The notes beneath the pieces were generated by a model. The model ran no database searches. It saw only the letters and a program-made list of their open reading frames with translations, and had not been told where the DNA came from. Shown piece after piece: positions 1 to 28,247 of a stretch of DNA of 36,916 nt. Position 1 is the first letter of the stretch. Every line of letters starts with the position of its first letter. A program made the translations under genes and the position numbers. The stretch comes from Pseudomonadota bacterium (lineage in GTDB: Bacteria > Pseudomonadota > Gammaproteobacteria > CALCKW01), in NCBI GenBank assembly GCA_039196715.1, contig JBCCUP010000045.1, positions 1 through 36,916 of the forward strand, in the 5' to 3' direction.

Positions 1-617
1 AGGATCTCGGCCGCCGTGCCCGGCATCGACCCCAATCCGCACGCCTTCAGCTCGGTCAGGTAGTCGCTGTAGCTTTGCTTGGTTTTCGCTGCACCGAACC
101 AGACCTCGAACGGCGAGAAGGCGTGGATGTGCATACCCGGCAGTGCCGCCTTGATCGCCAACACCAGATCGCGGTAGTAGGTGCCTGGCATTTTGGGGTG
201 CAAGCCACCCTGAATACAGACCTCCGTGCCACCCCGTGCCCACGCCTCCTCGGCGCGTTCGACCACGCGGTCGATGTCAAGCCACTCGGCGCCAGCGTCT
301 TCCTTGCGCTTGGCAAAGCCGCAAAAGGTGCAGCCCATGTAACAGATGTTGGTGAAATTGATGTTCCGGTTGACCACAAAACTGACGCGGTCGCCATTGG
401 CAGCGCACCGCAACGCATTGGCCGTGGCGAAAATCGCCGCGCGGTCTGCCTCGCGGTCCGGGTCGCGCGCGTGGAACAAGCCAGCCGCCTCGACCTCCGA
501 CACCTCGACGCCGCCGAGCACGCGCTCGAGCGTGCGCCGCACCGCCGGGCGCGCGTGGCCCAGCGTCGCGTCAAGTTCGGCCCCACCGGGCCCGCTGTGC
601 CGGTGTGTCCGCGTCAC
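1..617 (-). CDS. cofH: CofH, Fo synthase subunit 2 (partial, C-terminus beyond window)
   Basis: Radical SAM enzyme that, with CofG, builds 7,8-didemethyl-8-hydroxy-5-deazariboflavin (Fo) from tyrosine and 5-amino-6-ribitylamino-uracil; Fo is the chromophore of coenzyme F420 and of some photolyases. The reading frame starts at a GTG that overlaps the cofG stop codon (GTGA), so the two genes are translationally coupled. The radical SAM cluster motif CYMGCTFC gives C92, C96 and C99, preceded by the NRNINFTNI stretch typical of CofH. Only about 205 codons are present, roughly half of a CofH, and the rest lies left of base 1. The family call is clear. Whether the cell makes full F420 or only Fo cannot be told, because no other F420 genes (cofC, cofD, cofE) are visible here. 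Confidence 0.9.
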   Translation of the reverse strand, partial: MTRTHRHSGPGGAELDATLGHARPAVRRTLERVLGGVEVSEVEAAGLFHARDPDREADRAAIFATANALRCAANGDRVSFVVNRNINFTNICYMGCTFCGFAKRKEDAGAEWLDIDRVVERAEEAWARGGTEVCIQGGLHPKMPGTYYRDLVLAIKAALPGMHIHAFSPFEVWFGAAKTKQSYSDYLTELKACGLGSMPGTAAEI

Positions 618-1777
618 GAGGCGACCTCGACCGGCTGCTGCTGCTGCGCCAATCCATCTGCCCGTGCGATCACCGCGACACGCTCGGCTACCCGCGGCTC
701 GACAAAGTCGGCCTGTGCGTCGATGAAACGGGGGTAGACGGTCAGGCGCTCCGCCAGGTGGAAGTCTGCCGCGGCACAACTCGCTGCCAAACGATCGATC
801 TGTGGCCAGGCATGCTGCGGATTGATGTGGTCGATCGTGATCGGGCTGATGCCGCCCCAATCGTTGATCCCGGCACCGAGGTAGGCGATGTGCCGGGCAT
901 GCAAATTGGGGGGCGCCTGGATGCTGATCTCTGGCGCCAGAATGAGCCGTGCGGCCGCTATGGTCCTCAGCATGTCATCCAACGCAGGCTCGGGGTGCAG
1001 TGCCATGGCGATGTCAGGCTTGCGTTGGAAATTCTGGATGATGACTTCCTGGATGTGCCCGTGCCTTAGGTGCGAGGCGTTGATGGCCTCGAGGGCGTCG
1101 ATGCGTTCGGACCAGGTTTCGCCGATGCCGATCAAGAGGCCAGTCGTGAACGGCACCTTCTTTTCGCCGGCGCGCTCCAGCGTGCGCAAACGCTGGATCG
1201 GCACCTTGTCCGGGCAGGCGTAGTGCGGCTGGCCCTTGCGCGTCAGACGCCGACTCACGGTCTCCAGCATCATGCCCATGGATGCGCTGACGGGTTTGAG
1301 CTGATCGATCTCGTCGTCCGCCAGGGTGCCGGCGTTGACGTGGGGAAGCAGCGCGGTTTCGGACAACACGAGCGCGCACATGTCGGCCAGGTAGTCGGTC
1401 ATGCGCGCGTACCCGAGCTGTGCCAGGCGTTGCCGCGCGGACGCGTAGCGCTGCTCGGGCTTTTCGCCCAGACTGAACAGCAATTCCTTGCAACCGTGAC
1501 GCTCGCCACGCCGGGCGAGTGCGAGCACGTCCTCGGGCCGCATGATGTTCGACGCGGGATCACTCGGGTGTTTGACAAAAGTGCAGTAGGCGCAGGTGTC
1601 GCGGCACATGTTGGTCAGCGGCGCAAAGACCTTGCGCGAGTACGTCACCGTGCGCCCCCAGAACCGGTCGCGCAGCGCGGCGGCCTGCCGACAGAGCGAT
1701 GCTGTGTCCCTGTCCGATAAAGCGGTCTTGCCCAGTGCGTCCATGGTTAACCTATAGTGCAGTGCGCCCGTCGTCAC
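614..1777 (-). CDS. cofG: CofG, Fo synthase subunit 1
   Basis: Radical SAM enzyme that acts after CofH in Fo (deazaflavin) formation. The cluster motif CRDTCAYC (C58, C62, C65, counted from the GTG at 1777) and the downstream blocks NAGTL, KKVPFTTGLLIGIGET and IQEVIIQNF match the CofG family. The 387-residue length fits a stand-alone CofG, in contrast to the fused FbiC protein of actinobacteria. The start is ambiguous: GTG at 1777, or ATG at 1744 with a weak AGG seven bases upstream; family conservation begins after both. Its stop overlaps the cofH GTG. A RutR-like palindrome lies about 90-130 bases upstream, so it may be pyrimidine-regulated together with the neighbouring catabolic operon. 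F420 genes are uncommon in cultured proteobacteria. Confidence 0.93.
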   Translation of the reverse strand: MTTGALHYRLTMDALGKTALSDRDTASLCRQAAALRDRFWGRTVTYSRKVFAPLTNMCRDTCAYCTFVKHPSDPASNIMRPEDVLALARRGERHGCKELLFSLGEKPEQRYASARQRLAQLGYARMTDYLADMCALVLSETALLPHVNAGTLADDEIDQLKPVSASMGMMLETVSRRLTRKGQPHYACPDKVPIQRLRTLERAGEKKVPFTTGLLIGIGETWSERIDALEAINASHLRHGHIQEVIIQNFQRKPDIAMALHPEPALDDMLRTIAAARLILAPEISIQAPPNLHARHIAYLGAGINDWGGISPITIDHINPQHAWPQIDRLAASCAAADFHLAERLTVYPRFIDAQADFVEPRVAERVAVIARADGLAQQQQPVEVAS

Positions 1778-1852
1778 AGGCGGAACAACCGAGTGGCCAA
1801 AGACCGCCGTGGCGGGCGTCCTCCGCGTCCTCAGTGATCTCGCCCCTAGAGT

Positions 1853-1891
1853 CTGCCACTTTTTTTACCATTTGATCAAAATTTGTGGCAG
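1853..1891 (-). promoter_or_regulatory. RutR-like operator inside a larger inverted repeat, upstream of cofG
   Basis: Bases 1864-1879 read TTTACCATTTGATCAA. The RutR operator known from E. coli is TTGACCA-NN-TGGTCAA, and 12 of its 14 specified positions match here, one mismatch per half. TTTGATCAAA (1871-1880) is also a perfect palindrome. The box is flanked by perfect 7-bp arms, CTGCCAC (1853-1859) and GTGGCAG (1885-1891). It lies in the AT-rich part of the 285-bp gap between the end of rutR and the start of cofG, so the only gene it is placed to control is cofG. On the minus strand the TTGATC in the box could serve as a -35 element, but I see no convincing -10. Function is inferred from the match and from the adjacent RutR-family gene. 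Confidence 0.6.
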
Positions 1892-2062
1892 TCTACGCCC
1901 GAGACAACCTGTCGAGGCTCGACATGTCGAGCGGATTTACAGCGGGCCCGACCTGCGCAGTGCCGGGTTCACCCCGAACCGCGTTAACACAGGCCCGGCC
2001 TGTGATTGTCACAGTTGACCCGGGTGCGACCGCCCTCGCAACCGTGCCGCGTACACGCGTGT

Positions 2063-2683
2063 TCAGGCACGCAGCGCCCGCGAAAACAGGGTCTCGAGAA
2101 ACACCTCGGCATCGGCGTACGGGTCCGACGTGTCACCGAGCACCGCACGCACCTGAGCGTCGAAATCAGCGTAGTGCTGAGTCAGCGACCAGATAGAGAA
2201 GATCAGATGCACGGGATCGATTTCGCGAATCTTGCCAGCGGCGACCCAGCGACGAATCAACGCGGCTTTTTCCTCGACCAGGTCCTTGAGTTCACCCGAG
2301 AGCACCTCGCGGATGTGCGGCGCGCCCTGCAGTATTTCATTGGCAAACAGCCGGCTCTCGCGCGGGTAGTCGCGGCTCATGGCGAGTTTGCGGCAGACGT
2401 AGTCGAGGATGGCGTCGAGCGGCTCCCGGTCGTTATCCAACGCGCGCAGGGGGTCGAGCCAGGTCTCGATCAGGTTCTCGAGCAGCGCGGTGTACACCGC
2501 CGCCTTGGAGGGAAAGTAATAGAGCAGATTCGGCTTGGACATGTCGGCCGCCAACGCGATCTGGTCGAGCGTCGCGCCCCGGTAGCCCTCGGCCGCGAAC
2601 ACCGACAGCGCCGCCGCGTGGATTTGCGCGGTCTTCTGACGTTGAATGCGCGTTTGGCTTTTACCTTGTCCGGGTTGCCTCAT
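2063..2683 (-). CDS. rutR: RutR-type TetR-family regulator of pyrimidine utilisation
   Basis: TetR-family one-component repressor of 206 residues. The N-terminal helix-turn-helix (about residues 20-65) contains ATLDQIALAADMSKPNLLYYFPSKAAVY, very close to my recollection of the E. coli RutR segment. The C-terminal ligand domain keeps further RutR stretches: SRDYPRESRLF, LKDLVEEKAALI and DPVHLIFSIWSLTQHYADF. E. coli RutR senses uracil or thymine. The gene diverges from the dihydropyrimidinase operon, the usual arrangement for a local regulator, and a RutR-like box lies just beyond its 3' end in front of cofG. The ATG at 2683 has no strong ribosome-binding site. Alternatively it could respond to another cyclic amide such as a hydantoin. 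Confidence 0.85.
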   Translation of the reverse strand: MRQPGQGKSQTRIQRQKTAQIHAAALSVFAAEGYRGATLDQIALAADMSKPNLLYYFPSKAAVYTALLENLIETWLDPLRALDNDREPLDAILDYVCRKLAMSRDYPRESRLFANEILQGAPHIREVLSGELKDLVEEKAALIRRWVAAGKIREIDPVHLIFSIWSLTQHYADFDAQVRAVLGDTSDPYADAEVFLETLFSRALRA

Positions 2684-2834: not shown

Positions 2835-4097
2835 ATGACCACTGCCAACGCCGATTCCCGCAGGAACATTCGCATCAACGCCGACCGCCTGTGGGACAGC
2901 ATCATGGAGATGGCCACGATCGGTCCCGGTGTCGCCGGCGGCAACAACCGCCAGACGCTCACCGACGAGGACGCGGTGGGCCGCGCGCTCTTTCAGCGCT
3001 GGTGCGAGGAAGCGGGCTGCACCCTGGGCGTCGACGAAATGGGCAACATGTTCGCCACCCGCGCGGGCGAGGACCCGGATCTGCTGCCCGTGTACGTCGG
3101 TTCGCACCTCGACACCCAACCCACCGGCGGCAAGTACGATGGCGTGCTCGGTGTGCTGGGCGGCCTCGAAATGATCCGCACCCTCAACGACCTCGGCATC
3201 AAGACCAAACACCCGATCGTGGTCACCAACTGGACCAACGAGGAGGGCACGCGCTTCGCGCCGGCCATGCTGGCCTCGGGTGTCTTCGCGGGCAAACACA
3301 CCCTCGAGTGGGGCTACGACCGCGTCGACGCGGCCGGAAAGCGCTTCGGTGATGAGCTCGAGCGCATCGGTTGGCGCGGTGAAGAGAAAGTCGGCGCCCG
3401 CAAGATGCACGCGATGTTCGAGCTGCACATCGAGCAGGGGCCCATCCTCGAAGCCGAGGGCAAGGACATCGGCGTCGTCACCCACGGCCAGGGCCTGCGC
3501 TGGATCGAGTGCACGGTCACCGGCAAGGAGAGCCACACCGGCTCCACGCCGATGCACATGCGCAAGAACGCCGGCCGCGGCCTCGCGCTCGTCACCGAAT
3601 TGGTGCACGAGATCGCGATGAAGAACCAGCCCAACGCGGTTGGTGCCATCGGTCACATCGACGTGCACCCCAACTCGCGCAACATCATCCCCGGCAAGGT
3701 CGTGTTCACGGTCGACCTGCGCACGCACATCCTCGACAAACTCGAGGCCATGGTCGCCGAACTCATGGAACGCGCGCCCAAACTGTGCAGCGACATCGGC
3801 GTCGAGTTCGCCGCCGAGATCGTCGGCCAGTTCAACCCGCCGGCGTTCGACGAGGCCTGCGTCGCAGCGGTTCGCAATGCAGCCCAGGACCTCGGCTATT
3901 CGCACATGGACATCGTCTCGGGCGCCGGCCACGACGCGTGCTGGATCAACGACGTCGCGCCCACCGCGATGATCATGTGCCCCTGCGTGGACGGCCTGTC
4001 GCACAACGAAGCCGAGGAGATCTCCAAGGAATGGGCCGCAGCTGGCACCGACGTGCTGTTCCACGCCGCGGTCAACACCGCCCAGATTGTCGACTGA
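2835..4097 (+). CDS. M20-family Zn-dependent N-carbamoyl-amide amidohydrolase (N-carbamoyl-beta-alanine or allantoate type)
   Basis: Dinuclear zinc amidohydrolase of the beta-ureidopropionase / L-carbamoylase / allantoate amidohydrolase family, 420 residues, which is the usual length. Predicted metal ligands are H91 and D102 (GSHLDTQ, GGKYDG), E137 (TNEEGTRF), H198 (FELHIEQGP) and H390 (LSHNEAEE). In the reductive pyrimidine pathway this enzyme would hydrolyse N-carbamoyl-beta-alanine to beta-alanine, CO2 and ammonia. The adjacent dihydropyrimidinase, which makes that substrate, supports this. It is first in the operon and has a good ribosome-binding site (GAGGAG). The exact carbamoyl substrate cannot be read from sequence; carbamoyl amino acids from hydantoins are an alternative. 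Confidence 0.9.
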   Translation: MTTANADSRRNIRINADRLWDSIMEMATIGPGVAGGNNRQTLTDEDAVGRALFQRWCEEAGCTLGVDEMGNMFATRAGEDPDLLPVYVGSHLDTQPTGGKYDGVLGVLGGLEMIRTLNDLGIKTKHPIVVTNWTNEEGTRFAPAMLASGVFAGKHTLEWGYDRVDAAGKRFGDELERIGWRGEEKVGARKMHAMFELHIEQGPILEAEGKDIGVVTHGQGLRWIECTVTGKESHTGSTPMHMRKNAGRGLALVTELVHEIAMKNQPNAVGAIGHIDVHPNSRNIIPGKVVFTVDLRTHILDKLEAMVAELMERAPKLCSDIGVEFAAEIVGQFNPPAFDEACVAAVRNAAQDLGYSHMDIVSGAGHDACWINDVAPTAMIMCPCVDGLSHNEAEEISKEWAAAGTDVLFHAAVNTAQIVD

Positions 4098-4121: not shown

Positions 4122-4148
4122 ACCCAGGACAGCGAGAGAGGATTGAAC

Positions 4149-5603
4149 ATGAGCACGGTCATCAAGAACGGCACCGTCGTCACCGCAGACCTCAGCTACC
4201 GCGCCGACGTGCTGATTGAAAAAGGCGTCATCACCGACATCGGTGACAACCTCAGCGGCGACAAGACACTCGACGCGACCGACTGTTACGTCATGCCGGG
4301 CGGCATCGACCCGCACACCCACCTCGAAATGCCGTTCATGGGCACCTACTCGAGCGACGATTTCGAATCGGGCACGCGCGCGGCGCTGGCCGGCGGCACC
4401 ACCATGGTGGTCGACTTCGCGCTGCCGAACCCGGGTGAGAGCCTGCTGGATGCGCTGCAACGCTGGGACAACAAGTCCACCCGCGCCAACTGCGACTACT
4501 CCTTCCACATGGCGGTCACCTGGTGGGGCGAGCAGGTCTTCAACGACATGAAGACCGTGGTGCAGGAGCGCGGCATCAACACCTTCAAGCACTTTCTCGC
4601 CTACAAGGGCGCGTTGATGGTCAACGACGACGAGCTCTACAGCTCGTTTCAGCGCCTCGCCGAACTCGGCGGCACGGCGATGGTGCACGCGGAGAACGGC
4701 GATGTGGTCGCCGAGTTGTCCGCCAAGCTGCTTGCAGAAGGCAACACCGGCCCCGAGGCCCACGCCTACTCCCGGCCGACGCAGGTCGAGGGCGAGGCAA
4801 CCAACCGCGCCATCATGATCGCGGACATGGCGGGTGTGCCACTGTACGTTGTCCACACCTCGTGCGAGGAGGCCCACGAGGCGATCCGGCGGGCGCGCAT
4901 GCTCGGCAAACGCGTCTGGGGCGAACCTCTGATTCAACACCTCACGCTCGACGAGAGCGAGTACTTCCACGCCGACTGGGACCACGCGGCGCGCCGCGTG
5001 ATGTCACCGCCGTTCCGCAACAAGCAGCACCAGGACAGCCTCTGGGCGGGCTTGCAATCGGGTTCACTGTCGGTGGTCGCGACCGACCACTGCGCCTTCA
5101 CCACCGAGCAGAAACGCTTCGGTGTCGGTGACTTCACCAAGATCCCGAACGGCACCGGCGGGCTCGAGGACCGCTTGCCGATGCTCTGGACCCACGGCGT
5201 CGCCACCGGCCGCCTGACGCCGAACGAGTTCGTCGCGGTCACCTCAACCAACATCGCCAAGATCCTCAACTGCTACCCGAAGAAAGGTGCGATCCTGCGC
5301 GGTGCCGACGCTGACATCGTGGTCTGGGACCCGGCCAAGGAGAAGACCATCACGGCTGACACCCAGCAGTCGGCGATCGACTACAACGTGTTCGAGGGGC
5401 ACCACGTGAAAGGCCTGCCCCGGTTCACCCTGACGCGTGGCCAGGTGGCCGTGCACGACGGCGATCTGCGCTTCCAGGAGGGGCACGGCAAGTTCGTCCC
5501 GCGCGAGGCCAACGCCACGGTCAACAAGGCGCTGAGCCAGTGGAAGGAACTGACCGCACCGCGGCCAGTGGAGCGCACCGGTATCCCGGCGACCGGGGTC
5601 TGA
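4149..5603 (+). CDS. hydA: Dihydropyrimidinase / D-hydantoinase
   Basis: Amidohydrolase-superfamily zinc enzyme that opens the ring of dihydrouracil or dihydrothymine (or 5-substituted hydantoins) to the N-carbamoyl amino acid, the substrate of the preceding gene product. Length is 484 residues from the ATG at 4149. An in-frame TTG at 4143 is less likely, since AGAGAGG at 4135-4141 is well spaced for the ATG. Metal and active-site residues: H57 and H59 (DPHTHLE), K153 (the carbamylated lysine of FLAYKGA), H180 (VHAENGD), H236 (VVHTSCE) and D313 (VATDHCAF). All are intact, so it should be active. No dihydropyrimidine dehydrogenase gene (preT/preA) is beside it, so either the first step is encoded elsewhere or the natural substrate is already reduced. 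Confidence 0.95.
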   Translation: MSTVIKNGTVVTADLSYRADVLIEKGVITDIGDNLSGDKTLDATDCYVMPGGIDPHTHLEMPFMGTYSSDDFESGTRAALAGGTTMVVDFALPNPGESLLDALQRWDNKSTRANCDYSFHMAVTWWGEQVFNDMKTVVQERGINTFKHFLAYKGALMVNDDELYSSFQRLAELGGTAMVHAENGDVVAELSAKLLAEGNTGPEAHAYSRPTQVEGEATNRAIMIADMAGVPLYVVHTSCEEAHEAIRRARMLGKRVWGEPLIQHLTLDESEYFHADWDHAARRVMSPPFRNKQHQDSLWAGLQSGSLSVVATDHCAFTTEQKRFGVGDFTKIPNGTGGLEDRLPMLWTHGVATGRLTPNEFVAVTSTNIAKILNCYPKKGAILRGADADIVVWDPAKEKTITADTQQSAIDYNVFEGHHVKGLPRFTLTRGQVAVHDGDLRFQEGHGKFVPREANATVNKALSQWKELTAPRPVERTGIPATGV

Positions 5604-5610
5604 TGCACCG

Positions 5611-6396
5611 GTGAGCGCCGACACGGTCATCCACGCCGAGCACCTGGACCTCACCTTCGAGACCAACGACGGTCCGGTCCACGCGCTAAAGGGCGTCACC
5701 CTCTCGCTCGCCAAGGGCGACTTCGTCTCGTTCATCGGGCCATCGGGCTGCGGCAAAACCACGTTCCTGCGCTGCGTTGCCGCACTCGAGACACCGACCG
5801 CCGGCACGCTGACCGTCAACGGCATGAGCGCCGAGGCCGCGCGTCGGGCGCGCGCCTACGGCTACGTCTTCCAGGCCGCCGGCCTCTACCCGTGGCGGAC
5901 GATCGAGGACAACATCAAACTGCCGCTGCAAATCATGGGCTTCGGCCGCGACGAGCAACAGCAGCGGGTGCAACGCGTTCTCGAACTCGTCGACCTCGAC
6001 GGCTTCGGCCGCAAGTACCCGTGGCAGCTCTCCGGCGGCATGCAACAGCGCGCGTCGATCGCGCGCGCGCTGGCTTTCGACGCCGACATCCTCTTGATGG
6101 ACGAGCCCTTCGGGGCACTCGACGAAATCGTGCGCGACCACCTGAACGAGCAGCTGCTGGCGCTCTGGGCCAAGACCGGCAAGACGATCGCGTTCGTCAC
6201 CCACTCGATTCCGGAGGCCGTGTACCTCTCGACCCGCATCGTGGTCATGAGCCCCCGGCCCGGCCGCATCACCGATGTGATCGACAGCCCGCTGCCGCGT
6301 GAGCGACCACTCGAAATTCGCGACACGCCCGCGTTTCTCGCCATTGCCCAGCGCGTGCGCGAGGGGCTGCGCGCCGGACACACCGCCGATGCCTGA
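5611..6396 (+). CDS. ABC importer ATPase (SsuB/TauB/ThiZ type)
   Basis: Cytoplasmic ATPase subunit of the importer formed with the next three genes, 261 residues. Walker A is GPSGCGKT (43-50), the Q-loop Q88, the signature LSGGMQQ (140-146) and Walker B ILLMDEP (160-166); all are intact. The motif spacing and the FGALDE sequence after Walker B are typical of the nitrate/sulfonate/taurine/thiamine-precursor subfamily. It starts at a GTG five bases after the dihydropyrimidinase stop codon, so it is almost certainly cotranscribed. Given the operon, the likely cargo is a pyrimidine or related cyclic amide; that is an inference. Confidence 0.92.
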   Translation: MSADTVIHAEHLDLTFETNDGPVHALKGVTLSLAKGDFVSFIGPSGCGKTTFLRCVAALETPTAGTLTVNGMSAEAARRARAYGYVFQAAGLYPWRTIEDNIKLPLQIMGFGRDEQQQRVQRVLELVDLDGFGRKYPWQLSGGMQQRASIARALAFDADILLMDEPFGALDEIVRDHLNEQLLALWAKTGKTIAFVTHSIPEAVYLSTRIVVMSPRPGRITDVIDSPLPRERPLEIRDTPAFLAIAQRVREGLRAGHTADA

Positions 6397-6405
6397 GCTC
6401 ACCGC

Positions 6406-7335
6406 ATGAGGACACTGGTTGCCATCCTGACCGTGGTCGGCGCGATCCTCGCGGTGTGGTATGTCGCTGCCATTCCGATGAACATGCACGAGGCCACCCT
6501 CAAGGCCGAACGGGCCGGTGTCGCGGTGGTGCCGCCCACCGCACGCGAGCGGCGCGCCCTGAGCGGGCTGCAACTGGCGCGTGACAACCCGTCGCTCTGG
6601 TCACAAGCCTATGTGCAGGACCGGCCCCGGCTGCCGGCGCCACACCAGATCGTTCAGGAAATCTGGAAAACCACCGGCGCCATGGTGCTGCGTGGCCGGG
6701 CCTTCTCCAAACGCAGCCTGATCACCCACGGCTGGGTGACGCTCTCGGCGACCCTCGTGGGCTTTGCCTTCGGTACGGTGTTCGGCCTGGTGCTCGCGGT
6801 TGCGATTGTCTACAACCGGCCGATGGACCTCTCGGCCATGCCCTGGGTGATCGCGTCCCAAACCGTGCCGATCACCGCGATCGCGCCGATGGTGGTCGTG
6901 GCCCTCGGCAAGCTGCAGGTGGATGACCTCATCGTCAAGGGCGTCATCTCGATGTACCTGAGTTTCTTCCCGGTCGTGGTCGGCATGGTCAAGGGCCTGC
7001 GCAGCCCCGACGCCATGCAGCTCGACCAGATGAAAACCTGGAATGCATCGGGGCTGCAAACCTTCCTGCGGCTGCGGCTGCCAAGTGCCATGCCGCTCTT
7101 CTTCGCCTCGCTCAAGGTCGGCATTGCCGCCTCGCTGATCGGCGCGGTGGTGGCCGAGATGAGCCTCTCGCAGGACGGTGGCCTCGGCGCCCGCCTGCTC
7201 TCGGGCAGCTACAACGGCCAGATGCTCAGCATGTGGGCGGCGCTCCTCGTTGCCGCCGCGCTCGCCGCCGCCCTGGTGTTCCTGATCGGTGCGATCCAGG
7301 ATCGCACGCTCACGCGCATGGGGTTCAACCGGTGA
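6406..7335 (+). CDS. ABC importer permease (BPD family), subunit 1
   Basis: Inner-membrane permease of 309 residues. A hydrophobic N-terminal segment (about 1-25) is followed by a soluble stretch of roughly 85 residues and then the usual transmembrane core. The cytoplasmic EAA-type loop that contacts the ATPase lies around MKTWNASGLQTFLRLRLPSA. The extended soluble N-terminal part, with KAERAGVAVVPPTAR, is longer than in SsuC/ThiX-type permeases. It begins nine bases after the ATPase stop, and its stop codon overlaps the start of the next permease (GTGA). Two different permeases imply a heterodimeric channel. Confidence 0.9.
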   Translation: MRTLVAILTVVGAILAVWYVAAIPMNMHEATLKAERAGVAVVPPTARERRALSGLQLARDNPSLWSQAYVQDRPRLPAPHQIVQEIWKTTGAMVLRGRAFSKRSLITHGWVTLSATLVGFAFGTVFGLVLAVAIVYNRPMDLSAMPWVIASQTVPITAIAPMVVVALGKLQVDDLIVKGVISMYLSFFPVVVGMVKGLRSPDAMQLDQMKTWNASGLQTFLRLRLPSAMPLFFASLKVGIAASLIGAVVAEMSLSQDGGLGARLLSGSYNGQMLSMWAALLVAAALAAALVFLIGAIQDRTLTRMGFNR

Positions 7336-8168
7336 GCTGGCTCGTCGGCGCTGCCGTGGTCTGGGCCGCCGCCTGGGCGCTGAACATCGCGCTGTCACGC
7401 GTTGATGCGCCCTGGACGCGCATCGCGATCCCGGTGGTGTTCGGCCTCACCCTGCTCGCGGTCTGGGAAGGCGCGGTGCGCGGCTTCGAAGTCAACCCGA
7501 TCATCCTGCCCGCCCCCTCGGCCAGCGCCGGCACGCTGGTCGCCAACGTGCCGACGATCTGGGCGGACCTCGTGCAAACCTTCTTCAAGGGCGCCCTGTC
7601 GGGTTACGTGATCGGCTGCACGGCGGGCGTGCTCGCCGCGGTCGCGGTGGACCGCTCGCCGTTCCTGCAACGCGGCCTGCTGCCGGTCGGCAACTTCCTC
7701 GCCGCCCTGCCCATCGTCGGCATGGCGCCGATCCTCGTGATCTGGTTCGGCTTCGGCTGGCAATCCAAGGCCGCGGTGGTGGTGGTCATGGTGTTCTTCC
7801 CGATGCTGGTGAACACCATCGAAGGCCTGCGTGCCACCGACCCGATGCAACGCGACCTCATGCACACCTACGCCGCCAACTACGGGCAGAGCCTGCGCTT
7901 TCTGCGCCTGCCGGCGGCGCTGCCGTTCATTTTCAACGGCCTCAAGATCTGCACGCCGCTCGCGCTGATCGGCGCGATCGTCGCCGAGTTCTTCGGCTCG
8001 CCCACCGTCGGTATGGGGTTTCGCATCTCGACGGAAGTGGGCCGACTGGCACTCGACATGGTCTGGGCGGAAATCACCGTCGCGGCCATCGTCGGCTCCG
8101 CATTCTACGGCTGCATGGCCCTGTTGGAACGCCGCCTCAGCTTCTGGCACCCCTCGCACAGGCGCTGA
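7332..8168 (+). CDS. ABC importer permease (BPD family), subunit 2
   Basis: Second inner-membrane permease, 278 residues from the GTG at 7332, which overlaps the stop of subunit 1 by four bases. The reading frame stays open for 99 bases upstream, but that part lies inside subunit 1 and has no membrane-protein character. It shows multiple hydrophobic segments, the conserved GNFLAALPIVGMAPILVIWFG block and an EAA-type loop near HTYAANYGQSLRFLRLPAALP. The pair resembles the permeases of nitrate/sulfonate/pyrimidine-precursor importers. Translational coupling to subunit 1 suits a 1:1 heterodimer. Confidence 0.9.
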   Translation: MSWLVGAAVVWAAAWALNIALSRVDAPWTRIAIPVVFGLTLLAVWEGAVRGFEVNPIILPAPSASAGTLVANVPTIWADLVQTFFKGALSGYVIGCTAGVLAAVAVDRSPFLQRGLLPVGNFLAALPIVGMAPILVIWFGFGWQSKAAVVVVMVFFPMLVNTIEGLRATDPMQRDLMHTYAANYGQSLRFLRLPAALPFIFNGLKICTPLALIGAIVAEFFGSPTVGMGFRISTEVGRLALDMVWAEITVAAIVGSAFYGCMALLERRLSFWHPSHRR

Positions 8169-8238
8169 GCTGGAGTCGGTATTGTGTATTGTGTGGAGTA
8201 CACATCAACCCTGTTGGTAAACCGAGGAGAGAAGTGAG

Positions 8239-9228
8239 ATGAAAAATCTGTTCGCACCGCTGCTGGTCGGCGCCCTGTCGCTGGCCACCCTGCCCGCGAG
8301 CGCCGCAGACGATGTCACGCTGCAACTCAAGTGGGTGACACAAGCGCAGTTTGCTGGCTACTACGTGGCACTGGACAAGGGCTACTACGACGAGGAAGGC
8401 CTCAACGTCACGATCAAACCCGGCGGCCCGGACGTCGCCCCCGCGCAGGTCATTGCCGGCGGTGGCGCGGACGTGGTGCTGGACTGGATGCCCTCGGCGC
8501 TCGCGAGCCGCGAGAAGGGCCTGGACCTCGTGAACATTGCCCAGCCCTTCAAGAGCTCCGGCATGATGCTGACCTGCCGCAAGGACAGTGGCATCGCGAG
8601 CCCGGCCGATTTCAAGGGCAAGACGCTCGGCGTCTGGTTCTTCGGCAACGAGTACCCTTTCCTGAGCTGGATGAGCAAGCTCGGTATACCGACGGACGGC
8701 AGTGACGGCGGCGTGACCGTGCTCAAGCAGGGCTTCAACGTCGACCCGATCCTGAACGGCCAGGCCGACTGCGTCTCCACGATGACCTACAACGAGTACT
8801 GGCAGATCATCGACGCCGGCCTGACGCCCGAGGAACTCGTGGTCTTCAAGTACGAGGACCAGGGCGTGGCGACCCTCGAGGACGGCATGTACGTGCTCGG
8901 TGAGCGCCTGCAGGACGCGGCCTTCAAGGACAGCATGGTGCGTTTCGTCCGTGCCTCGATGAAAGGCTGGAAGTACGCCGAGGACAACCCGGATGAAGCC
9001 GCGATGATCGTGCTCGACAACGACGCCAGTGGCGCACAGACCGAAAACCACCAGAAGCGCATGATGGGCGAGATCGCGAAGCTCACTGCGGGCTCGAACG
9101 GCGCACTGGACCCGGCCGACTACGAGCGCACCGTGGCCTCCCTGCTCTCGGGCGGTTCGGACCCGGTCATCACCCAGCAGCCCGAAGGCGCCTGGACGCA
9201 CGACATCACCGATGCCGCGCTGAACTGA
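8239..9228 (+). CDS. NMT1/THI5-type periplasmic substrate-binding protein
   Basis: Periplasmic binding protein of 329 residues with a cleavable signal peptide (MKNLFAP... ending ASAAD, cut near residue 23). The mature start, VTLQLKWVTQAQFAGYYVALDKG, is the hallmark of the NMT1/THI5-like family, which includes the binding proteins for thiamine pyrimidine precursors (ThiY) and riboflavin (RibY). Other family blocks are DVVLDWMPSAL, GKTLGVWFFGNEYPF and TYNEYWQI. It has a good ribosome-binding site (GGAGAG) and closes the operon before a strong terminator. The family's liking for pyrimidine-like rings fits the flanking dihydropyrimidinase; the true ligand is unknown. A 70-bp gap before it includes a 5-bp stem (8190-8204). 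Confidence 0.92.
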   Translation: MKNLFAPLLVGALSLATLPASAADDVTLQLKWVTQAQFAGYYVALDKGYYDEEGLNVTIKPGGPDVAPAQVIAGGGADVVLDWMPSALASREKGLDLVNIAQPFKSSGMMLTCRKDSGIASPADFKGKTLGVWFFGNEYPFLSWMSKLGIPTDGSDGGVTVLKQGFNVDPILNGQADCVSTMTYNEYWQIIDAGLTPEELVVFKYEDQGVATLEDGMYVLGERLQDAAFKDSMVRFVRASMKGWKYAEDNPDEAAMIVLDNDASGAQTENHQKRMMGEIAKLTAGSNGALDPADYERTVASLLSGGSDPVITQQPEGAWTHDITDAALN

Positions 9229-25158: not shown

Positions 25159-26724
25159 ATGGAAAAAAGCCTCTTTCGGTACATCTGGACCCACTCGAAA
25201 AAAGAGCAGATCGTGCTCTTGCTGGTCACGGTGGCCACATTCCCGATCCTCTACGTGTCGCTCGAGCTGCCAAAGCGCATCATCAACGACGCGATCGGCG
25301 ACGCGCAGGAGGCCGTCACCGTCCTCGGCGTGACACTCACACAGATCGAGTTCCTGCTGGTGCTGTGCGTCGGCTTTCTGCTGGCGGTGCTCGCCAACGG
25401 CCTGCTGAAGATGCGCCTCAACACCATGAAAGGGGTGCTGGCCGAGCGCCTGCTGCGCCGCTTCCGCTACCAGTTGCTGACCCGCATCACCCGCTTCCCA
25501 CGGCCGTACTTTCGCCAGACCAGCCAGGGCGAGTTGGTGTCAATGGTCACCTCCGAAGCCGAACCGATGGGCGGGTTGATGGGCGACATGCTCGCGCAAC
25601 CGGTGTTCCAGGCTGGCCAGATGCTGACCATCCTCACCTTCCTGTTTGCGCAAAGCGTCTGGTTCGGCCTTGCCTCGATCGCGCTGATCCCGCTGCAGGC
25701 CTGGTTGATCCCGAAACTGCAGCGCCAGATCAACCTGCTCAACAAGGCGCGCATCAAGGAAGTGCGCAACTTTTCAACCGACATCGGCGAGACCGCCGCC
25801 GCAGTCAGCGACATCCGCACCAACGGCGGGCTGCGCTACCGCATGGCGCAGTTCTCCGACCGGCTCGGTCGCCTGTTCGAGATCCGCTTCGAGATCTACC
25901 AGAAGAAGTTCTTCATGAAGTTTCTGAACAACTTCATCAACCAGCTCACGCCGTTCTTTTTCTACTCGGTCGGCGGCTACCTCGCGATCACCGGCGAGAT
26001 CACCGTGGGCGCGCTGGTGGCGGCGCTCGCCGCCTACAAGGACCTGTCCTCACCCTGGCGCGAGTTGCTCAGTTTCTACAACCGCGCCCAGGACATGGCC
26101 TTGCGCTGGACCGTCGTGCTCGAGCGCTTTGCGCCCGATACGCTCGTGGACGACAGTTTGTTCGACGGCGAACCGGACGAGGTGGTGAGCTTGCGCGGCG
26201 ACATCCGAATAGACGCTGTCACGGTCCGGGACGAGCACGGGCAGCCCGTCCTCGAGGACATCACACTGGACATCCCGCAAGGCGCCCGCGTCGCGGTCAA
26301 GACCGGCAGCGAAATCACCGCGCGCGCCTTCGCCGACCTCCTGACCCGCGAAGTGGTGCCGCAGGCCGGGTCGGTCACGATCGCCGGGCACAACCTCAAC
26401 ACGCTGCACCAGTCCAACATCGCACAACGCGTCGGCTACGCCCACTCCAGCCCCGAGCTGCTGCAAGGCACCCTCGGTGCCAACCTGCTGTTGCCATTCA
26501 AACGCAAGCCCGTCGCACGTGACGCTGAATCCACCGACGTGGATCGCTTCCAGGGCGAAGCCCGCCGGGCGGGCAACAGCACCGACCCGCTCGACGCACA
26601 GTGGGTCGACCCCAGTGTCGCCGGCCTCGCGTCGTCGACGAGATCAAAGCGTGGTGGTTTCAGCTCGTCCAGGCGATGGGCATCGACGAGTTCATGGTGC
26701 GTCGCGCGCTGCGGTCCTGGCTGA
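25159..26724 (+). CDS. ABC-exporter-like protein with degenerate ATPase, N-terminal part (before frameshift)
   Basis: First part of a protein that should run on to 28247. Residues 1 to about 330 form a type-I ABC exporter membrane domain with six predicted helices (for example 18-38, 65-85 and 150-185) and FPRPYFRQTSQGELVSMVTSEAEP in a coupling-loop region. Residues about 350-485 begin a nucleotide-binding domain, but the Walker A position reads VAVKTGSEITARAF with no GxxGxGK(S/T), and the Q-loop position reads VGYAHSSPELLQGTL. After about residue 489 (DPSVAGL, near base 26628) this frame drifts into Arg/Ser-rich nonsense and stops at 26724. The homologous continuation is in the frame one base back. 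The ATG at 25159 has only a weak ribosome-binding site. Confidence 0.75.
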   Translation: MEKSLFRYIWTHSKKEQIVLLLVTVATFPILYVSLELPKRIINDAIGDAQEAVTVLGVTLTQIEFLLVLCVGFLLAVLANGLLKMRLNTMKGVLAERLLRRFRYQLLTRITRFPRPYFRQTSQGELVSMVTSEAEPMGGLMGDMLAQPVFQAGQMLTILTFLFAQSVWFGLASIALIPLQAWLIPKLQRQINLLNKARIKEVRNFSTDIGETAAAVSDIRTNGGLRYRMAQFSDRLGRLFEIRFEIYQKKFFMKFLNNFINQLTPFFFYSVGGYLAITGEITVGALVAALAAYKDLSSPWRELLSFYNRAQDMALRWTVVLERFAPDTLVDDSLFDGEPDEVVSLRGDIRIDAVTVRDEHGQPVLEDITLDIPQGARVAVKTGSEITARAFADLLTREVVPQAGSVTIAGHNLNTLHQSNIAQRVGYAHSSPELLQGTLGANLLLPFKRKPVARDAESTDVDRFQGEARRAGNSTDPLDAQWVDPSVAGLASSTRSKRGGFSSSRRWASTSSWCVARCGPG

Positions 26725-28247
26725 ACCCGGCAACCCACGGCCGGCTGATCGAGGAGATCATCCGCCTGCGCCCCGAAATCCGGCAGCGCCTTGCGGACGC
26801 GGGTGTCAGCGACATCGTGCACGAATTTCACCCCGACAAGTTCAACCCCGTCACGCCGCTGGGCAGCAACCTGCTCTACGCCCTGCCCGACCACCCGCTG
26901 ACGCAGCGCGAACTCGCCGAAGACAAGAACTTCGTGCGCATGCTCCGCGAGGAGGGTGTCACCGACGAGCTGGCCAAGCTCGCCGCCCAGCTGCTCGAGG
27001 GCCTGATGACCACCTTTGGCAAGGACGGCACCGACCACCCGATGTTCCAGCGGTTGAACATGGACCTCGAGCTCTACAGCGAGCTCGGTGCCATTGTCAT
27101 GGACTACAAGCAGGGCGGCGAAGCCAGCCTCAGCGTCGAACAGTACGCGTTGATGCTGACCGTGCCGTTCGCCTTTTCGGCCGACCAGATCGGGCCGGCC
27201 GTGGACGAGGCGTTCATCGAACGGCTGCTCGACATCCGCAAGCGCAACGCCGCCCACATGGTCGCCGCGCTCAACGGCCAGTTCGAGACCTTCAACCCCG
27301 AGCGCTACCTGCCGGTCATGACCCTGCTCGGCAACGCGATCTTCGGCACCGTCTCGCAGATGGCCGGCGCGCGCGAGAAGATTGTCGAGGACACGGTCGT
27401 CGCGGTGCTCAACGAGAATGGCCTGCGTCGCCTCGCGGCGCAGTCGATCTTCGACGTCGAAACCGCGACCGGCGGTGACAACCTGCCGGCGGTGTTCCGC
27501 GAGCGCGTGGCGTTCAGCCGCGCCGGCATCAAGAAACCCGACGTGCTGATCCTCGGTAACGCCCTTGCGAGCCACGACGCCACCGCCCGTGCCGAGATGC
27601 GCTCGCGCATCAGCGACCTGATGCCGGAGGCGACCAAGATCTTCATCGAGAAGCAGATCAACAACCCCGAGAACTACGACGTCTACGTCGAGATCGTCGA
27701 CGGCCGGATCGACGGCCTGGTGCAGGCCGAGGCGCCCGCCTCGCAATCGGCCCAGGCTGACCTCAACCGCAAACTGAAGGTCATTGCCCAGACCGACCTG
27801 TTCCAGGGCCTCGAGCGCAAACACCAGCGGTTGCTGGCCTTCAGCGCGCGCTGGTACAAGGCCGAATCCGGCCAGGTGATTTTCGCGACCGATGAAGAGC
27901 CCGATGCGGCCTACCTCTGCGTTGACGGGCGCGCCGGCATGTACTGGCCGGTGGAAGACGGAGACGAAGATTACCTGGTCACCGAAGTCACCTCGGGTCG
28001 CTTGGTCGGCGACCTCTCGGTCATTCTGGGCAAACGCCGTACGCTCTACCTCAAGGCGATGGAAGACTGCGTGTTCCTGCGCCTGAGTGCGCAGGACCTG
28101 CTGTCTGTGATCGAGAGCGACGTGCGTGTCGCGACGAGCTTGCTGCGCTCCGTCGGAGATCACCTGATCGGCGCCGGCGACACCATTCGCTCAATGCAGG
28201 ACTACGCGATCGCCCGCGGCGTGGATTTCTCGGAGTACGACCCGTAG
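26601..28247 (+). CDS. Continuation of the ABC-like protein: helical insert, degenerate ATPase end, cNMP-binding domain
   Basis: Second part of the frameshifted gene. True homology begins at VVDEIKAWW (base 26631); the nominal GTG at 26601 has no ribosome-binding site and is probably not used. An insert of roughly 240 residues (for example FMVRRALRSWLNP, LIEEIIRLRPEIRQRL and FGKDGTDHPMF) separates the Q-loop from the signature region. That region reads LPAVFRERVAFSRAGIKKPDVLILGNALASHD: no LSGGQ, and the Walker B Asp-Glu is replaced by Gly-Asn. Residues from KVIAQTDLFQGL onward are a Crp-type cyclic-nucleotide-binding domain, including SGRLVGDLSVILGKRRTLYLKA at the phosphate-binding cassette. 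Joined, the protein is about 1030 residues and probably cannot hydrolyse ATP in the usual way. Confidence 0.75.
   Translation: MGRPQCRRPRVVDEIKAWWFQLVQAMGIDEFMVRRALRSWLNPATHGRLIEEIIRLRPEIRQRLADAGVSDIVHEFHPDKFNPVTPLGSNLLYALPDHPLTQRELAEDKNFVRMLREEGVTDELAKLAAQLLEGLMTTFGKDGTDHPMFQRLNMDLELYSELGAIVMDYKQGGEASLSVEQYALMLTVPFAFSADQIGPAVDEAFIERLLDIRKRNAAHMVAALNGQFETFNPERYLPVMTLLGNAIFGTVSQMAGAREKIVEDTVVAVLNENGLRRLAAQSIFDVETATGGDNLPAVFRERVAFSRAGIKKPDVLILGNALASHDATARAEMRSRISDLMPEATKIFIEKQINNPENYDVYVEIVDGRIDGLVQAEAPASQSAQADLNRKLKVIAQTDLFQGLERKHQRLLAFSARWYKAESGQVIFATDEEPDAAYLCVDGRAGMYWPVEDGDEDYLVTEVTSGRLVGDLSVILGKRRTLYLKAMEDCVFLRLSAQDLLSVIESDVRVATSLLRSVGDHLIGAGDTIRSMQDYAIARGVDFSEYDP

Follow-up and report, generated by a model that had tools for sequence, protein, structure and literature searches.

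Reductive pyrimidine catabolism elsewhere begins with dihydropyrimidine dehydrogenase (PydA/PydX) and continues with dihydropyrimidinase (PydB) and beta-ureidopropionase (PydC). The regulator RutR, of which 4JYK and 6Z1B are the uracil-bound structures, has a regulon in E. coli that includes rutABCDEFG and carAB. Its uracil contacts are W77, Y97, W167, Q171 and Q179, and a model places residue 52 on a DNA base (PMC10891134). A related chemistry has been suggested for a uric acid gene cluster of Chloroflexota, in which a putative luciferase-family F420 reductase for yanthine would take the place of a PydA-type reductase and precede a hydrolase that opens the ring (PMC12507026). With respect to the deazaflavin cofactor itself, a 2021 review counts the role of F420 in Proteobacteria among the unanswered questions and states that outside Actinobacteria no bacterial F420-dependent reductase or F420-reducing dehydrogenase has been experimentally studied (PMC8498797).

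Here we compare these systems with a locus of a Pseudomonadota bacterium (Gammaproteobacteria; CALCKW01; assembly GCA_039196715.1, genome G000, with G001 and G002 as congeners). The window is the whole contig JBCCUP010000045.1 (C45) with a length of 36,916 nt. The loci of this kind share with E. coli the operator type, the uracil contacts of the regulator and its position next to pyrimidine catabolism genes; instead of the E. coli regulon, however, F420 synthesis and an F420-dependent enzyme stand behind the operator. From the reductive pathway they retain dihydropyrimidinase and carbamoylase, with methylmalonate-semialdehyde dehydrogenase and an NCS1 permease as neighbours in relatives, whereas PydX is missing from G000 and most carriers, and an LLM-class F420-dependent oxidoreductase (LLM) is assigned to the first step. 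The Chloroflexota proposal would, by analogy, be a close chemical parallel, but differs in its purine-derived substrate, in the phylum and in that neither RutR nor linkage to a cof operon is described. We consider it probable that the box upstream of cofG is the RutR operator of a seven-gene F420 operon and that LLM is an F420H2-dependent uracil/thymine reductase replacing PydA/PydX, the reaction being inferred. The putative regulation and the linkage to the pathway are strongly supported by the genome comparisons described below. The features of the window are summarized in Table 1.

Table 1. Features of the analysed locus (positions in the window)
Feature	Position	Strand	Evidence and remarks
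cofH, 5' part	3..617	-	TIGR03551 match; rest on contig C14 (locus L059)
cofG, FO synthase subunit 1	614..1777	-	TIGR03550, 454.7 bits (cut-off 213); likely start ATG 1743
RutR-type operator TTTACCATTTGATCAA, in front of the F420 operon	1864..1879	none	matches TTGACCAnnTGGTCAA at 12/14 fixed positions
RutR-like TetR regulator	2063..2683	-	phmmer 2.9e-54 to E. coli RutR; residue check
hyuC, N-carbamoyl-amino-acid hydrolase (beta-ureidopropionase role)	2835..4097	+	NF006769, 680.8 bits (cut-off 452)
hydA, dihydropyrimidinase	4143..5603	+	TIGR02033, 594.9 bits (equivalog cut-off 393.25, exceeded)
NMT1/THI5-type ABC transporter (ATPase, two permeases, binding protein)	5611..9228	+	Pfam matches

The original prediction had placed a 16-bp RutR-like box upstream of cofG, beside a gene for a RutR-like protein, and both features are confirmed. 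Within the window the box is the sole site with at most two mismatches to the consensus, and it deviates at one position from the pattern conserved among relatives, TTKACCAnnTGGTMAA. It lies between the rutR-like gene and cofG, 184 bp past the end of the former and 121 bp upstream of the cofG ATG, or about 86 bp if GTG 1777 is the start. Taken alone, the box is weak evidence because the 5-Mb G000 genome holds many two-mismatch sites (149 sites with at most two mismatches to a box-tuned pattern vs 78 for the reversed control); since its position is kept across many genomes, chance nevertheless does not explain it. The rutR-hyuC interval of the window was also searched for a further box, without a good match (five mismatches at best). 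The box is furthermore flanked by a perfect 7-bp inverted repeat, CTGCCAC...GTGGCAG (1853-1859 and 1885-1891), which did not stand out in the remaining upstream regions displayed and may be due to chance or be the site of a second regulator.

To describe the conservation of the operator, LLM loci were scanned for TTKACCAnnTGGTMAA with at most one mismatch, excluding the group of loci with a threonine at residue 52 of the RutR-like protein (T52, see below). Of the 39 related proteobacterial LLM loci, 28 have one or two boxes at a distance of at most 250 bp from cofG, so that the box is indeed conserved upstream of cofG in relatives. Box density is 3.65 per kb upstream of cofG (37 boxes in 10.1 kb) and 1.5 per kb upstream of hyuC or rutR (17 in 11.2 kb), compared to 0.013 per kb elsewhere in the same loci (7 in 554 kb); upstream of cofG it is about 290-fold that of the remaining locus sequence. 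A fortuitous box next to a fortuitous neighbour is thus hardly credible: single two-mismatch sites are common in a 5-Mb genome, but a roughly 290-fold excess in the same position across many genera contradicts this reading, as does the covariation of operator and recognition helix. Several LLM loci (L070, L096, L104, L105, L116, L155, L163) show no close box, and none was seen upstream of cofG in the cofG loci of other phyla (Chloroflexota, Acidobacteriota and others). In eight loci (L079, L080, L083, L091, L093, L109, L110, L111), among them several of Gammaproteobacteria, two boxes lie 32-35 bp apart upstream of cofG, a distance of about three helical turns that suggests cooperative RutR dimers. 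By eye, the box adjoins or falls within a TTGACA-type promoter in several alphaproteobacterial loci.

The protein encoded next to the box shares homology with E. coli RutR along most of its sequence (Table 1). It scores below the equivalog cut-offs (TIGR03613, 235.1 vs 368 bits; NF011584, 208.9 vs 230 bits) and, judged by these profiles, is a relative rather than a strict equivalog of RutR. All five uracil contacts are kept in this protein and in 39 of 39 RutR homologues of the loci. Residue 52 (E. coli numbering) is Lys in 30 of the RutR-like proteins, including that of the window, and Thr in nine, a T52 subclass with an altered operator which these loci add to what is described for E. coli. 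The half-sites change together with this residue: K52 loci have 35 TTKACCA half-sites vs 2 altered ones, and T52 loci have 10 TTKACTA half-sites vs 1 canonical one (Fisher 1e-7). Such a matched change in protein and operator is what binding would predict. As the T52 proteins form one clade in the tree, the covariation reflects one or a few events. No binding data are available; binding of the 16-bp palindrome by RutR and its release by uracil are supported by the conserved sites and the covariation. The T52 paralogues belong to L065, L067, L068, L069, L071, L072, L149, L150 and L154, where the half-site reads TAGTCAA.

The operon behind the box continues beyond the window. Contig C14 ends in the same 141 bases as the window, the overlap is identical, and the cofH frame stays open across it, with 425 codons once joined. 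On the minus strand the seven genes cofG-cofH-cofD-cofC-cofE-npdG-LLM follow each other with tight spacing. The F420 biosynthesis set CofG, CofH, CofC, CofD and CofE is fully present in G000, npdG encodes an NADPH:F420 reductase, and the last gene (L059:10317-11318, minus strand) matches TIGR03842, the profile of LLM-class F420-dependent oxidoreductases, with 492 bits (cut-off 295). From this gene content, one transcript unit would provide complete F420, its reduction and an enzyme that uses it, co-transcription being inferred. Use of FO merely as a photolyase antenna was also considered and rejected, as cofD, cofC, cofE, npdG and an F420 enzyme follow.

To our knowledge, no function has been known for TIGR03842. 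In a sequence search among solved structures, the nearest relative of LLM is the F420-dependent Mer of methanogens (8QPL, 1Z69). An AlphaFold2 model of the Poseidonocella orthologue, which is 85% identical to the G000 protein, has a mean pLDDT of 87.6, and its fold is closest to Mer, followed by F420-dependent alcohol and glucose-6-phosphate dehydrogenases. F420 dependence of LLM, although predicted from model and sequence, is well supported because both fold and sequence are nearest to F420-dependent enzymes. The likeness to Mer does not extend to the reaction partner: Mer acts on methylene-tetrahydromethanopterin, whereas LLM is tied here to pyrimidine genes, and its substrate is inferred from gene context.

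This context was surveyed in 80 cofG loci from a species-level genome collection and 18 further loci. In almost all loci of Proteobacteria that have a cof cluster of this type, an LLM gene stands last, the LLM proteins being 63-87% identical in most, and most such loci have a RutR-like gene and/or hyuC/hydA close by. A cof operon beside rutR and/or hyuC/hydA occurs in Rhodobacterales, Stappiaceae, Cohaesibacter, Halomonas, Marinobacter, Marinomonas, Vibrio, Alteromonas, Colwellia, Balneatrix, Motiliproteus and Trinickia. Conservation of the cof-rutR-hydantoinase neighbourhood, on which the original prediction depended, is thus observed over many alpha-, beta- and gammaproteobacterial families. 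The order of the window, in which hyuC, hydA and the ABC transporter genes are divergent from the rutR-cofG side, recurs as hyuC-divergent-rutR-cofG in Marinomonas, Balneatrix and others. Further neighbours in related loci are genes for an NCS1 nucleobase permease, methylmalonate-semialdehyde dehydrogenase, cytosine deaminase and a Tsx-type channel. The NMT1/THI5-type ABC transporter, which is also found near hydA in other LLM loci (e.g. L070, L078, L152), presumably serves pyrimidine or hydantoin uptake. Every LLM-positive genome tested contains cofG except G156, whose contig (L153) ends inside cofH, which accounts for the exception. In the trees, LLM of G000 clusters with Rhodobacterales proteins, but RutR of G000 with that of a congener, a discordance suggesting that the operon arrived by horizontal transfer and came under the control of the RutR already present.

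The LLM gene and cofG are separated in three genomes, two of which still have the LLM gene near hyuC (L164, L166); in L166 it stands in tandem with an NCS1 nucleobase permease gene, adjoined by rutR, a box, methylmalonate-semialdehyde dehydrogenase and hyuC. The enzyme itself, beyond the cofactor, is therefore tied to the pyrimidine genes. This bears on the idea that RutR matches F420/FO synthesis to pyrimidine supply because CofH uses ribityl-aminouracil, with the F420-using reaction lying outside pyrimidine breakdown. While a box and a RutR at cofG would fit, we regard this reading as very improbable, since the operon brings its own F420 reductase and LLM enzyme, LLM keeps company with pyrimidine genes where it has left cofG, and its presence tracks the loss of PydX. 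Of the two guesses made in the original prediction, participation of an F420-dependent enzyme in pyrimidine breakdown fares better, as the operon ends in an F420-dependent reductase that anticorrelates with PydX; tuning of F420 synthesis through the ribityl-uracil of CofH has no evidence of its own.

A search of the G000 genome gave no match to a PydX-type dihydropyrimidine dehydrogenase. In the congener G001, rutR-hyuC is accompanied by a pydX gene converging on rutR, at the place where the window has cofG; in G002, pydX is part of the same cluster beside rutR, and a one-mismatch box lies upstream of hyuC. Among 30 genomes with the cof cluster, a PydX orthologue is missing from 22, whereas 29 contain a dihydropyrimidinase. 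In 198 Rhodobacteraceae, PydX occurs in 2 of 9 LLM-positive vs 163 of 189 LLM-negative genomes (Fisher p=6e-5). To exclude small or incomplete genomes as the cause of the absence, the comparison was restricted to genomes of at least 3 Mb, where the signal is weaker but persists (p=0.009). As related genomes are not independent samples, the p-values throughout are too small. RutA was likewise rejected as the missing first step: none over the cut-off was found in G000, which shows only weak LLM matches, and it occurs in 1 of 34 genomes and in 3 of the 198 Rhodobacteraceae. Judged from gene content, the PydX/LLM pattern carries the marks of a non-orthologous replacement of dihydropyrimidine dehydrogenase.

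The remaining 8 of the 30 genomes, mostly of the T52-RutR clade, keep PydX together with LLM, and 7 of these 8 contain two dihydropyrimidinase copies compared to 1 of the other 22 (p=3e-5). There, the module could be redundant or serve a different substrate. Since most tested T52-clade genomes also have PydX and a second dihydropyrimidinase, another substrate is conceivable for the T52 module in particular. Generalized to all carriers, a RutR-controlled F420 system would serve the catabolism of pyrimidines or related N-heterocycles, with LLM acting on something else (a 5-substituted pyrimidine, a purine-derived pyrimidinedione or a hydantoin precursor) or in the oxidative direction. This possibility is favoured by the genomes that combine LLM and PydX, of which most have a duplicated dihydropyrimidinase and several a T52 RutR paralogue, and by the Chloroflexota proposal for yanthine (PMC12507026). 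We nonetheless hold it to be unlikely, as most carriers without PydX keep dihydropyrimidinase, carbamoylase and a uracil-type RutR; with PydX missing while the rest remains, it is the uracil/thymine step that is left empty.

For LLM as a uracil/thymine reductase under RutR control, we propose the following mechanism. Without pyrimidine, RutR would occupy the box and limit transcription of the F420 operon. Uracil or thymine would free RutR from the box, so that the cofactor is built once its substrate appears. F420 would then be made and charged by NpdG with NADPH, and LLM with F420H2 would reduce the 5,6 double bond of uracil or thymine to yield the dihydropyrimidines. HydA and HyuC would complete ring cleavage to beta-alanine or beta-aminoisobutyrate, CO2 and ammonia. 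The LLM reaction and its direction, the ligand response and the choice of repression over activation are inferred, without biochemical evidence.

In the open-access literature we found no paper in which F420 is connected with pyrimidine catabolism, or cof genes with RutR. RegPrecise, the supplementary regulon tables of PMC5343134 and subscription papers were outside the scope of this search, so an earlier listing of cof in a RutR regulog is not excluded. The parts are of known kinds; their combination and the predicted F420H2-dependent pyrimidine reductase appear to be new. On balance we favour the view that an unrecognised class of pyrimidine reductase exists, in which an F420H2-dependent enzyme of luciferase fold has replaced dihydropyrimidine dehydrogenase in many Proteobacteria, marine ones and others, travelling together with the complete F420 pathway as one mobile operon that uracil switches on via RutR. 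If this holds true, F420 is a dedicated, substrate-induced catabolic cofactor in these bacteria, and the data suggest that the purpose of F420 synthesis there is pyrimidine reduction by a novel type of enzyme. Besides NAD(P)H and ferredoxin, F420H2 would provide a third chemistry for the first reductive pyrimidine step, the RutR regulon would extend to a cofactor pathway, and the proteobacterial branch of TIGR03842 would receive a function, albeit through an inferred reaction. With respect to F420 in Proteobacteria, the cluster offers a concrete answer that can be tested in marine bacteria amenable to culture (Marinomonas, Halomonas, Limimaricola).

Three further observations concern individual contigs. 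L072 is filed as Nocardioides marinus, while its proteins are nested in Roseobacteraceae in the trees; it is probably a mis-binned or contaminating contig. In the window, an ABC transporter membrane domain and a cyclic-nucleotide-binding domain are encoded in overlapping frames at 25159-28247, which may be two genes or a single gene disrupted by a frameshift. In Marinobacterium stanieri (L088, 5782-10040), cofG and cofH are separated; cofG has a box in front of it, and behind it come another box and the genes for a Tsx-type channel and cytosine deaminase. Here the cof genes seem to be split over several RutR-box transcripts.
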